DNA of 64,000 nt from Tepidisphaeraceae bacterium (GTDB lineage: Bacteria > Planctomycetota > Phycisphaerae > Tepidisphaerales > Tepidisphaeraceae), in assembly GCA_035998445.1 (NCBI GenBank), contig DASYHQ010000005.1, positions 62,001-126,000 on the forward strand, read 5' to 3'. This document shows positions 40,510 through 60,655 of the stretch, piece by piece. Under the pieces are notes generated by a model. That model made no database searches and was not told the origin of the DNA. It saw only the letters and a program-made list of their open reading frames with translations. Numbering within the stretch: position 1 is the first letter of the stretch; the number at the start of each line of letters is the position of its first letter. Made by a program: the position numbers and the translations under genes.

Positions 40510-41454
40510 ATGGAAACGCAGACGCTTCGCCTCGGCCACAGCCCCGATCCCGACGACGCCTTCATGTTCTACGGCTTAGCCAAGGACCTGCTGCCCTCCG
40601 GCAAGTGGCGCTTCGAGCATGTGCTGCAGGACATCCAGACGCTGAACCAACGCGCCATGCAGGGCGAGCTGGAGATCACCGCCATCAGCATCCATGCCTA
40701 CCCGTACGTGGCCCACAAGTACGCCCTGACCAGTTGCGGCAGCAGCATGGGCGACAAGTACGGCCCGATGATCGTCACGCGCCAGCCGATGGGCATCGAC
40801 GATTTGCGCGGCAAGACGATCGCGATTCCCGGTGAAATGACGACCGCCTTCCTCACGCTACAGTTGCTGCTCGGCAAGGGATCGAAAGGCAAATTGGACG
40901 ACGCCGGCGCCGCCGCCGGAATGGCCGCCGCGCCCGCGGATCTGCCCAACCGCGCCCACAACCCCGAAGCGTCGCCCGCGTTCTACTACGAGGTCGTCCA
41001 CTTCGACCAGATCCCCGCCTACGTGCGCGACGGCAAGGCCGACGCCGGCCTGCTCATCCACGAGGGCCAGCTGACGTTCGCCAACGAGGGCCTGCACCTC
41101 GTGGTCGACCTTGGCTCCTGGTGGCACGACAAGACCGGCCTCCCCCTGCCCCTCGGCGGCAACTGCATCCGCCGCGATCTGGGCCAGGAGGCCATGCAGG
41201 AGGTGACGAACATCCTGAAAAAAAGCATCCAGTACAGCCTCGACCACCGCGCCGAGGCGGTCGAGTACGCCCTGCAGTTCGGGCGCGACTTAAACCGCGA
41301 GTTGGCCGACAAGTTCGTCGGCATGTACGTCAACGATTGGACGCTAGACTACGGTCCGCGCGGCCGCGCGGCGATCACGCGCTTGCTGAGTGAAGGGGCC
41401 AAGGCGGGCATCGTGCCGGACGTCGGCGAGATCGACTACGTGATGGCCCGATGA
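40510..41454 (+). CDS. mqnD: 1,4-dihydroxy-6-naphthoate synthase (futalosine pathway)
   Basis: 314 residues. LGHSPDPDDAFMFYGLA is the N-terminal MqnD signature, followed by GELEITAISIHAYPYVAHKY and the ADAGLLIHEGQLTF substrate segment of this periplasmic-binding-protein-like enzyme. A low-complexity Ala-rich insertion (about 137-160) is not typical. It converts cyclic dehypoxanthine futalosine to dihydroxynaphthoate, indicating menaquinone synthesis by the futalosine route. Other mqn genes are not in the window. Its last 19 nt overlap the convergent DUF1440-like gene. Confidence 0.93.
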   Translation: METQTLRLGHSPDPDDAFMFYGLAKDLLPSGKWRFEHVLQDIQTLNQRAMQGELEITAISIHAYPYVAHKYALTSCGSSMGDKYGPMIVTRQPMGIDDLRGKTIAIPGEMTTAFLTLQLLLGKGSKGKLDDAGAAAGMAAAPADLPNRAHNPEASPAFYYEVVHFDQIPAYVRDGKADAGLLIHEGQLTFANEGLHLVVDLGSWWHDKTGLPLPLGGNCIRRDLGQEAMQEVTNILKKSIQYSLDHRAEAVEYALQFGRDLNRELADKFVGMYVNDWTLDYGPRGRAAITRLLSEGAKAGIVPDVGEIDYVMAR

Positions 41455-42083
41455 CGCGCGGTGCGACTCGCACGGTTGGTGGGTGACACCGCCATCACGC
41501 GCATAGCTGTGTGCAAGCCTGCGCCGAACGCCAAATGCGCCGCCAACACATAAGCGTGCCGTCTTAACGGTGTCCGCTGCGGGGGATCGCCGAAGCCGAT
41601 CAGCGGCATGGCGATCTCATCGCCCATCAACCAGACGGCGGTGCCGAAGAGCGTGCCGTGGCCGGACTGTACGAGCGGTCGCATGCGGGTCGTCGACAGC
41701 GCGCCGTAGACCATCCCGGCCGCGGCGCCGAAGGCGAAGTGGAACACGGTGCCCAAGGGGCGGCGCGTGTGGGTTGGCAACCGAGAACCCGTGACGATTT
41801 GCCCCAATTTGTCGGCGGCCCGCTCGCTTTCGGCGCGTTCGTGATGATGCGAGCGCGGTTCCCCCTGTGGCCACTGCCCTTTGCCCACGCCCGCGTTGGC
41901 CAACCGCCTGCGGGCCTCGTGTTTATCGGCCGGCTTCTGCGCCATCGCCAACGCCGCCCGCGACCAGCTGGCCATGAACGCCACCATCACCGCAGTGCCC
42001 ACTAATCCACCGACCGCGCCCGTGAAGGCCGCCCGGGATGTGCTCGTTTCACCGATGGTAATTCGCTGGATTCGCATCAACAT
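41436..42083 (-). CDS. DUF1440-like membrane protein
   Basis: 215 residues. Hydrophobic helices at about 20-45, 105-125, 140-155 and 180-198. AFTGAVGGLVGTAVMVAFM and FHFAFGAAAGMVYGAL match the pattern of DUF1440 inner-membrane proteins; a His-rich loop (SHHHERAESERA) lies between. The 3' end overlaps mqnD by 19 nt. The region upstream of its start (from 42084) leads into the 42-bp repeat array, which would lie in or before its 5' untranslated region. Confidence 0.65.
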   Translation of the reverse strand: MLMRIQRITIGETSTSRAAFTGAVGGLVGTAVMVAFMASWSRAALAMAQKPADKHEARRRLANAGVGKGQWPQGEPRSHHHERAESERAADKLGQIVTGSRLPTHTRRPLGTVFHFAFGAAAGMVYGALSTTRMRPLVQSGHGTLFGTAVWLMGDEIAMPLIGFGDPPQRTPLRRHAYVLAAHLAFGAGLHTAMRVMAVSPTNRASRTARHRAIT

Positions 42084-42251
42084 CCAATATTACCGGCCCC
42101 CAGTGCGGTCGTCGGCTGTGAAAATCGTCCGCACGGCGGCAATCGTGCCGAGCGCGACCACTGGGATCGACCTTATCGCCGATAAGTTCCGCTTTACCGC
42201 CCTGTCCGTCCACTTCACGTCTCCTAAACAGTTGGTTTCGCCCGCGCCGCC

Positions 42252-42487
42252 GTGTCGGGCCGACATGTACCGACACGACACGGGACCGGAAACGTGTCGA
42301 TACGACTCTCCCCGACACGCCGGAGAAAGAAATTCGTGTCGATACGCCGTTCCCCGACACGTCAACAAAGAGAAAGAGTGTCGGTACGCCGCTCCCCGAC
42401 ACGACGGCGCCGTGAAAGAGTGTCGGTACGCCGCTCCCCGACACGTCAGCGCGGAGAAAGCGTGTCGATACGCCGCTCCCCGACACG
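42252..42487. repeat. Regular array: six 26-nt palindromic repeats with 16-nt spacers
   Basis: Repeats start at 42252, 42294, 42336, 42378, 42420 and 42462, each exactly 42 nt apart. The consensus begins GTGTCGGTACGCCGCTCCCC and ends GACACG. The ends GTGTCGG and CCGACAC are complementary, giving a 6-7-bp stem with an 11-nt loop. The first copy is divergent, and units 3 and 4 are identical. The 16-nt spacers differ but several end in GAGAAAGA-like sequence, so they look like eroded repeat rather than captured DNA. The period is a multiple of three, so long frames cross it; from an ATG at 42265 one reads five C-R-Y-x-x-P-R-H units with six-residue linkers. Confidence 0.9.
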
Positions 42488-42655: not shown

Positions 42656-42791
42656 CCGTGGCCTGGGCGTCTCGCTTATGCGTGTGTCAGGTCAGCTGAT
42701 CTGGTTGGTTTTCGAGGCGCGATCGGCGCAACAAGCCCAAACAATCGCTTTCGTTCCAATCCGGCGGCATGGGCGAGACGCCCATGCCACG
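42656..42791. repeat. GCATGGGCGTCTCGCCCATGC-family inverted repeat, second copy
   Basis: CCGTGGCCTGGGCGTCTCGC... (42656-) faces ...GGCGAGACGCCCATGCCACG (to 42791). Compared with 35794-35932 the left arm has mutations (CTTATG for CCCATG) and the interior is weakly similar. Confidence 0.8.
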
Positions 42792-42943: not shown

Positions 42944-43025
42944 ACAGTTGCGCCGAGACGCGACACCTGAAGTTGAACCGCCCTAACGAAAACTTCCATC
43001 TCGAGCGGAACGCGCGTCTCCGTAG

Positions 43026-43089
43026 CGTGGCACGGGTTTTCAACCCGTGTTTCCTTCTTGGGGAACACGGGTTGAAAACCCGTGCCACG
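43026..43089. repeat. Perfect 26-bp inverted repeat (GGCACGGGTTTTCAACCCGTG)
   Basis: CGTGGCACGGGTTTTCAACC... (43026-43051) and its exact complement (43064-43089) enclose a 12-nt loop. Each arm contains a nested palindrome, CACGGGTT / AACCCGTG. No T-tract; it resembles the other dispersed palindromes rather than a terminator. Confidence 0.85.
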
Positions 43090-43256
43090 AAATGCCACCG
43101 CTACGATGTTTTGCAATCCGCTCGAAGCGGAGACAACGCCGATGACGCCGAGACGGCGAAGTCAGGAACGAAGCAACGGGATAGCGGACGGTGGGCGTTT
43201 CGTTTCCTGGCGCTTTTGGCGATTCCGTTTGCTCGTCGGACGTTCGTAACACGTTT

Positions 43257-43301
43257 TAGGTTCGGTCTGAGAAAGTTCTTCGTGTTCTCAGACAGAACCT
43301 A
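43257..43301 (-). terminator. Stem-loop at the 3' end of gpsA
   Basis: TAGGTTCGGTCTGAGAA / TTCTCAGACAGAACCTA form a 17-bp stem with one mismatch that begins in the gpsA stop codon. No T-run follows on the minus strand, so an mRNA 3'-end protecting hairpin is as likely as a terminator. Confidence 0.5.
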
Positions 43302-44321
43302 GTGAACCACGCGTTCGCCCTTCGGATCGCGGGTCATCAGTTCGGTGAGCGCAGCGATCACGTCCTTGTCTTCGAACAGCACCGAGTAAAGCGTTTCGGT
43401 GATCGGCATCTCCACGTTGTACTGCCGCGCGAGCATGCGGACCGACTTGGTCGTGGGCACGCCCTCGGCGACGCTGTCCATCTTCGCCAGCACGTCGGCG
43501 AGCTTGCGGCCCTTGCCGATCTGTTCGCCCACGGTGCGGTTGCGGCCCTCGGGGCTTACGCAGGTGGTGATGAGGTCGCCCAGGCCGGCCAGGCCGCCGA
43601 AGGTTTCCTCGCGGGCGCCCATGGCCACGCCGAGGCGGGTGATTTCAACCAAGCCGCGCGTCACCAGCGCGGCCTTGGCGTTGTTGCCCGCTGCCAGGCC
43701 GTCCAGAATGCCCGCGGCGATCGCGATCACGTTCTTCGTCGCGCCGGCCAATTCCACGCCGACCACGTCGCTGTTGGTGTAGACGCGGAACCACTGCGTC
43801 GCGAAGGCATTCTGCACGCGCTGCGCGACGCCGAGATCGTCGCACGCCGCCACCGCGGTGGCCGGCAGGTACTTGGCGATCTCACCGGCGATGTTCGGGC
43901 CCGACAGCGCGACCAGCGAACGCTTCGCGGGCGTAGCCGATTCACCCAATGCGTCGGCGATGATCTGCGTGGGGCGCAGCAGCGTTTCGTTCTCGATGCC
44001 CTTGGCGACGCTGACGACGGGCATGCCCGCCGGCACGTGTGGCCGCAGGCGGCGCCAGACGCCCCCCATGTACTGCGTGGGGATGGCCGACAGGATCATG
44101 GTGGCGCCGTTGAACGCGTCGGCATCGTTGGCGGTCAACCGCACGTTCGCCGGCACGCTCACGCCCGGCAACAGCCGGCGGTTCTCGCGGTCCTGCATGA
44201 GGCGCTCGATCGATTCCTCGAACGCCCCCCACATCGTCACCGAGTGCCCGCCCTGCGTAAGCAGGATCGAGCAAACCGTCGCCATCGCGCCATCGCCGAG
44301 AATCGTTACGTGTTCCGCCAT
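43299..44321 (-). CDS. gpsA: Glycerol-3-phosphate dehydrogenase [NAD(P)+]
   Basis: 340 residues from MAEHVTILGDGAMATVCS; the frame is open to 44360. The N-terminal Rossmann motif is GDGAMA, and conserved GpsA segments follow: SVAKGIE, LSGPNIAGEIAK, GVELAGATKNVIAIAAGI, GLGDLITTC and the basic GRNRTVGEQIGKG. It reduces dihydroxyacetone phosphate to glycerol-3-phosphate for phospholipid synthesis. The upstream neighbour is a divergent oxidoreductase gene. Confidence 0.95.
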   Translation of the reverse strand: MAEHVTILGDGAMATVCSILLTQGGHSVTMWGAFEESIERLMQDRENRRLLPGVSVPANVRLTANDADAFNGATMILSAIPTQYMGGVWRRLRPHVPAGMPVVSVAKGIENETLLRPTQIIADALGESATPAKRSLVALSGPNIAGEIAKYLPATAVAACDDLGVAQRVQNAFATQWFRVYTNSDVVGVELAGATKNVIAIAAGILDGLAAGNNAKAALVTRGLVEITRLGVAMGAREETFGGLAGLGDLITTCVSPEGRNRTVGEQIGKGRKLADVLAKMDSVAEGVPTTKSVRMLARQYNVEMPITETLYSVLFEDKDVIAALTELMTRDPKGERVVH

Positions 44322-44415
44322 CGTGGTGCGAGTTTTACAGGAGCGGCGCGCTTCTGTCACATCGGTGAGTCCCGTCGTCGTCGCGTAACGGTGGCGGATC
44401 GATTACGTTACCCCC

Positions 44416-60555: not shown

Positions 60556-60655
60556 TAGATCATTTGCGATTTGCGATTTGCGATATGCGATTGAAGAGCA
60601 GCGAACGTTCGTCTGCATTTCAATCGCAAATCGCAAATCGCAAATCGGCAATTCC
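60556..60655. repeat. GATTTGCGATTTGCGAT inverted repeat
   Basis: GATTTGCGATTTGCGATATG... (about 60567) is mirrored by ...AATCGCAAATCGCAAATCGC (about 60632) around about 40 nt. Related single-arm sequence occurs near 23049-23070. It lies between rpsG and the small membrane-protein gene. Confidence 0.75.

Follow-up and report, generated by a model that had tools for sequence, protein, structure and literature searches.

A palindromic 42-bp tandem array in a Tepidisphaeraceae genome and its likeness to helical-period arrays upstream of one gene family

Plasmid iterons, the binding sites of a Rep protein, are direct repeats that adjoin the gene of that protein and recur about every two helical turns. 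In F-plasmid parS (sopC), twelve tandem 43-bp units with inverted repeats are bound by protein dimers (PMC6238139). In the RAYT/REP/REPIN systems, one gene goes with one private repeat, copies of which lie elsewhere in the genome (PMC3733652). Satellites and minisatellites with tandem unit lengths of 10–200 nt, some of them intergenic, have been surveyed in prokaryotes, and in the portion of that survey drawn on here the planctomycete R. baltica appears by count only (PMC6749651).

The window analyzed here (64,000 nucleotides of a Tepidisphaeraceae bacterium, contig DASYHQ010000005.1) holds an array that is very probably a stray member of a class of tandem arrays linked to genes for one ~230-aa protein family. 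This class resembles iterons in its repeat spacing and in its position by the gene of a (here putative) binding protein, but the family lacks a Rep domain, there is no sign of an origin, and about 25 paralogues carry private repeats, with stray copies. The likeness to sopC lies in tandem inverted-repeat units of nearly the same length (42 bp in the window, with arms of 6–7 bp), whereas the present arrays are chromosomal, many and private within a genome, linked to an unrelated family without ParA/ParB, and of periods 20–22 or 40–44 bp. By logic the RAYT systems are closest, although our arrays are tandem on a helical grid, restricted to few loci and untagged, and the protein is not an HUH transposase. 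The surveyed satellites share the tandem organization, the range of unit lengths and the partly intergenic placement, but neither a link of non-coding satellites to a gene family nor a 21-bp quantization is reported in that portion of the survey (PMC6749651). Among open-licence papers we found no description of such a gene–array pair, and the class is apparently undescribed.

The array in the window and its sister locus

The array and its surroundings comprise the following features.

42252–42276, no strand: dyad unit 1, GTGTCG(N13)CGACAC, perfect arms, diverged loop
42294–42318, no strand: dyad unit 2
42336–42360, no strand: dyad unit 3
42378–42402, no strand: dyad unit 4
42420–42444, no strand: dyad unit 5
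42462–42486, no strand: dyad unit 6
42252–42486, minus strand: whole array, oriented as the sister array C28:1326-1434 is towards its downstream gene
42090–42218, minus strand: 42-codon ORF, GTG start at 42218, stop at 42090, Shine-Dalgarno AGGAGA just upstream
41436–42083, minus strand: gene for a DUF1440 protein (PF07274, E 2.4e-9), downstream of the array
43299–44360, minus strand: gpsA, NAD-dependent glycerol-3-phosphate dehydrogenase (PF07479, E 1.3e-55), flanking gene outside the array

The strict 42-bp periodicity of six units that an earlier note had read from the sequence is confirmed, and the array is real and far beyond chance. All six starts fall exactly on the grid, the TRF score is 237, and at lag 42 the sequence from 42251 is identical at 145 of 193 positions, compared with 84 of 193 in the best shuffle (30 dinucleotide-preserving shuffles, six lags, whole window). 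The array is one of palindromes, as had been proposed, but the lengths given then (26 nt with 16-nt spacers) need correction: the strictly conserved dyad is 25 nt (GTGTCG-N13-CGACAC) and the spacers are 17 nt, and a flanking C/G pair in units 1, 2, 3 and 6 extends the dyad there to 27 nt. The loop, described as conserved, is so in units 2–6 but not in unit 1, where it is 38% identical to the others despite perfect arms; reading unit 1 as an inverted unit is unconvincing (18 versus 16 of 25 matches). Likewise, the spacer end thought to be common to all is a purine-rich, GAGAAAGA-like sequence present in spacers 2–5, and the mean pairwise identity of spacers within the array is 0.48. Successive GTGTCG half-sites alternate in direction and are spaced 19 and 23 bp apart in turn, the mean of which is two helical turns.

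The DUF1440-like gene that the earlier note had placed at 42083 is supported by its Pfam match, but it is not the nearest reading frame: the 42-codon ORF, which has a good ribosome-binding site and no Pfam match, intervenes 33 nt from the array and could be the first gene of a two-gene operon with it. Beyond the array, towards gpsA, REP-like inverted repeats (e.g., CGTGGCACGGGTTTTCAACCCGTG) occupy 42657–42791 and 43025–43089. Across the array Rfam had no match, even with E relaxed to 1, and its hits at 43014–43102 are spurious microRNA matches to a REP-like hairpin. At 60562–60647, two heptamer runs, ATTTGCG and AATCGCA, mutually inverted, are separated by ~30 nt; the genome has further arrays of heptamers.

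Searching the whole genome by pattern revealed a second array of the same dyad, C28:1326-1434, with three units on an identical 42-bp grid. It has the opposite contig orientation, and its spacers and flanks are unrelated to those of the window array. When the two loci are compared, identity is 100% in the arms, 62% in the loop and 35% in the spacer (column permutation p ~1e-5), and none of the nine units has an imperfect arm. What is conserved in the array is thus the dyad rather than the spacer; the earlier observation that the palindrome is better conserved than the spacer stands against an independent locus (1.00/0.62/0.35). Run over the 5.84-Mb genome, a covariance model of the dyad scored no sequence above noise other than these nine units at the two loci, and the exact-arm dyad does not recur outside the array loci in 1.28 Mb of the same genome. 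The gene behind the sister array, C28:1639-2404, is a member of the ~230-aa family that reads in two frames with its usual Ala-Ala end intact; the split, at L009:2033-2141, is a frameshift or an assembly error. At 0.4 kb from the sister array lies a gene for a Y1/RAYT-like transposase (PF01797, L009:225-935), followed at L009:940-1140 by GTAG-type hairpins (GTAGGGTGGGAT...ATCCCACCCTAC).

Outside this genome the window repeat was not found. The genus is represented by one genome, and comparison was with 25 other genomes of the same family, from which the repeat is absent, weak model hits there being without arrays. There is no real match in 391 other genomes of the phylum, where two hits with three mismatches look like chance, and blastn of the array against plasmids and phages gave nothing. 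Letting the spacing vary, we searched 84,980 species plus viral contigs for the dyad pair and obtained six hits. Each proved unrelated when inspected: those in Olsenella are inverted hairpins, and those in Streptomyces, Cytobacillus and an actinomycete are repeats of other kinds. Several genomes of the family do have arrays of like kind but with other sequences, upstream of the ~230-aa gene family.

Helical-period arrays and the ~230-aa gene family

Scanning 0.89 Mb for periodic palindromes and tandem repeats revealed further arrays of other sequences, with periods of 20, 21, 40 or 42 bp. Among non-coding tandem arrays of at least 80 bp in 1.28 Mb, 22 of 24 have a period of 20–22 bp or a multiple (periods of 20, 22, 40, 41 and 44 bp are among those found), and the other two, of 57 and 171 bp, are two-copy duplications. 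Within predicted genes the periods of arrays are mixed, the coding/non-coding split resting on a simple hexamer model of gene prediction. Repeated 9-mers in non-coding DNA peak at lags of 20/21, 42, 63, 84 and 105. Because periods such as 20, 22 and 44 occur and the arrays are intergenic, codon phase is excluded as a general cause; two turns of B-DNA would be a natural common factor. With its 42-bp period and intergenic position, the window array has the period and the non-coding placement of this class. Helical arrays number 18 per Mb in its own genome and 17 per Mb in G403, both of which have the gene family. Two genomes without the family had none in samples of 400 and 200 kb; G307, with seven family genes, also had none in a 400-kb sample.

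The genes adjoining several of the arrays encode one family of ~230-aa proteins. A profile built from five array-adjacent members and used to search the genome gave 25 members, and relatives are found across the phylum. By a loose listing, 24 of the 25 have an array of 20–22 bp (or double that) upstream. Under a strict criterion (a helical-period array within 1 kb of the gene, upstream versus downstream), an array lies upstream of 48/77 family genes and downstream of 2/79. The own genome contributes 22/25 versus 2/25; as five members had served to recognize the family, the unbiased upstream count is 17/20. Members elsewhere were not chosen by their arrays, and there the ratios are 15/26 versus 0/27 in other genera of the family and 11/26 versus 0/27 in other families and classes of the phylum. 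The baseline for all genes of the genome sample is 34/977 (upstream) and 15/977 (downstream). Arrays of other periods were not found upstream of any member under the strict criterion, and about half of the relatives' genes have no array at the threshold used.

Gene-linked arrays have a median length of 191 bp and lie a median of 255 bp before the gene. Their sequences turn over rapidly. Among 57 of them there is one clearly similar pair, whose proteins are 86% identical, and protein pairs at or below 67% identity have unrelated repeats. Hence, the repeat sequence is private to each gene, while period, position and, roughly, length are kept. Three of the four period-20 members form one clade (support 100/99), and from these four arrays the period would seem to go with the protein. 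Dyads are enriched in gene-linked units relative to shuffled ones (10/40 at p < 0.05; Fisher combined p 9e-5), although only about a quarter of the arrays are clearly dyadic. The best dyads of the class mostly have 0–2 nt between the arms, and conservation is on average slightly higher in the arms than outside them (12/17, p 0.03).

The proteins match nothing above noise in Pfam, NCBIfam, PHROG, PADLOC or PDB, and no recognizable DNA-binding domain and no ParB domain was found in them. They are basic (median pI 9.2), show no obvious signal peptide on inspection, and are predicted from sequence pattern to have a helix-rich N-terminal half and a fibronectin-III-like C-terminal half. C-terminal Ala-Ala is present in 60 of 72 full-length members (loci L168–L249), the rest of the tail being variable. 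We take this ending to be akin to ssrA-type ClpXP degrons, and by that analogy it is a possible sign of fast turnover. No copies of the family were found on plasmids or in viral contigs. Two local peculiarities concern individual genes: L183 (C5:135765-136289) ends in a 30-bp coding tandem repeat (PVHRSPSLTR) without Ala-Ala, and family genes L171, L176 and L182 are among several that are followed by a recurring 9-bp repeat related to CGCCAAGA.

Seven arrays without a detected neighboring member each match essentially one gene-linked array; the gene-linked arrays of the genome show no matches among themselves.

Stray arrays with a gene-linked match: C18:80911, 132240, 318184, 318588 and 650343; C51:62594; the window array

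The window array is called stray because neither a family member nor a remnant occurs in the window (chance-level matches only), and its gene-linked match is the array upstream of the member C28:1639-2404. The array C51:62594 adjoins a marginal family member. Two stray arrays (C18:318184-318756, comprising L083:18184-18313 and L083:18588-18756) share one convergent intergenic region less than 300 bp apart, and are of different array families, with periods of 20 and 21. Stray arrays point to a co-oriented downstream gene in about half of the cases; as oriented promoter elements they can be rejected (three consistent, three not). They may serve as targets in trans, or may be left over from genes that moved or were lost.

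Readings of the array

Linkage, period, dyads and basic charge all fit a row of binding sites, which is the simplest reading. We give roughly even odds (about 0.5) that the window array is a stray iteron- or operator-like tandem array, with sites phased on the helix, for a cognate protein. Sites every 20–22 bp (two helical turns) or every 40–44 bp would all lie on one face of the helix, where a cognate protein acting as a dimer or oligomer could bind its own array cooperatively and, most simply, control its own gene. Such binding is a putative mechanism, about as probable as its opposite. For the window array the cognate pair would be the array C28:1326-1434 and the gene C28:1639-2404. Since that gene is frameshifted in the assembly, the window array may control the small-ORF/DUF1440 operon, for whose control region it has the expected orientation, or may be losing function. 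Of the readings offered by the earlier note, selection on the palindrome as an operator or iteron array is the best supported, through unequal decay and the gene-linked two-turn class. Several observations fit less easily: the family has no recognizable DNA-binding domain, most gene-linked arrays are not clearly dyadic, about half of the relatives' genes have no array at the threshold used, G307 has family genes but no helical array in its sample, stray arrays face a downstream gene in only about half of the cases, the window has no family member, and the link of period to clade comes from four arrays. In addition, unrelated repeats between paralogues as close as 67% identity imply fast turnover for a protein–DNA pair, which is unusual for a regulator. 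Fast replacement could reflect recognition that diversifies rapidly, or else a protein that takes part in making its array.

A neutral minisatellite would arise by slippage, with the 21-bp quantum a property of the lineage's copying machinery and the gene family merely located there. The free and quickly replaced repeat sequences agree with this, as do the relatives without the window array, the difference in copy number (six in the window, three at C28) and the existence of two-copy duplications of 41, 42 and 63 bp. It would not, however, lead one to expect perfect arms in nine units at two loci with spacers near chance; this unequal decay of arms, loop and spacer argues against neutrality. 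Nor does it account for the placement of arrays before, and not behind, the genes of one family across the phylum, with no other period there. We regard the neutral account as rather unlikely.

The array could also be transcribed as a chain of RNA hairpins, a structured leader or small RNA before the small-ORF/DUF1440 operon. It is co-oriented with that operon and ends 33 nt before the ribosome-binding site and start codon, its folding energy is better than that of shuffles (z -3.7 on the minus strand, -4.9 on the plus), and where stem position 7 varies between A and G, a G-U pair is retained on the minus strand. On the other side, the arms are invariant, so that no compensatory change supports pairing; the predicted structure does not consist of successive unit hairpins; no sigma-70-like promoter was found; and a helical period is not expected of RNA. 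In the class as a whole, 0–2 nt between the arms of the best dyads are too few for RNA loops, and hairpins at the window array would not explain the other arrays. The earlier suggestion of a structured leader for the DUF1440 gene in particular is not borne out: the array does lie upstream in the same orientation, but related arrays precede a different family, and stray arrays show no consistent direction relative to a gene. We consider an RNA function unlikely.

Centromere-like (parS/sopC) or nucleoid-organizing sites spread over the chromosome would account for the many arrays per genome, and F-plasmid parS is the nearest known architecture. No ParA/ParB-type gene, however, is among the neighbors examined (DUF1440, gpsA, a menaquinone biosynthesis gene), the linked family lacks a ParB domain, and the repeats differ between arrays while parS is one sequence, making this very unlikely. 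That the array is a product of REP/RAYT-type transposition, with the Y1 transposase encoded next to the sister array (at 0.4 kb) as its enzyme, is highly improbable: the transposase gene has GTAG-type hairpins of its own on its flanks, the dyad has no consistent GTAG/CGTC tag and sits at two loci only on a fixed grid, and, as the main blow, no single-unit copies occur elsewhere in the genome. A CRISPR or CRISPR-like adaptive array, which the regular palindromic repeats with variable spacers might suggest, has a negligible chance, as the earlier note had also judged: the spacers are 17 nt and related rather than ~25–45 nt and unrelated, the arms are shorter than CRISPR repeats, and Cas1 (PF01867) has no match in this 95.5% complete genome, against 9 of 14 control genomes that matched.

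Implications of the gene–array pairs

We propose, tentatively and at somewhat less than even odds, a widespread and apparently undescribed two-part system in which most genes of an uncharacterized protein family are paired with private, fast-evolving arrays of free sequence but fixed two-turn period and upstream position, the protein reading or building its array. If this is true, stray copies of an array, such as the one in the window, would provide each protein with a small, private set of addresses in the genome. If the protein builds its array, it would represent a new way of making repeats. If it reads the array, some 25 independent and naturally diversified protein–DNA pairs of one family would be present in one genome, and the replacement of repeats between close paralogues on a retained 21-bp grid would make a rich case of recognition co-evolution. 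Such pairs would be a possible source of orthogonal regulators, and reading of the array would provide a first clue to the function of a family found widely in the phylum and matched by no curated model.
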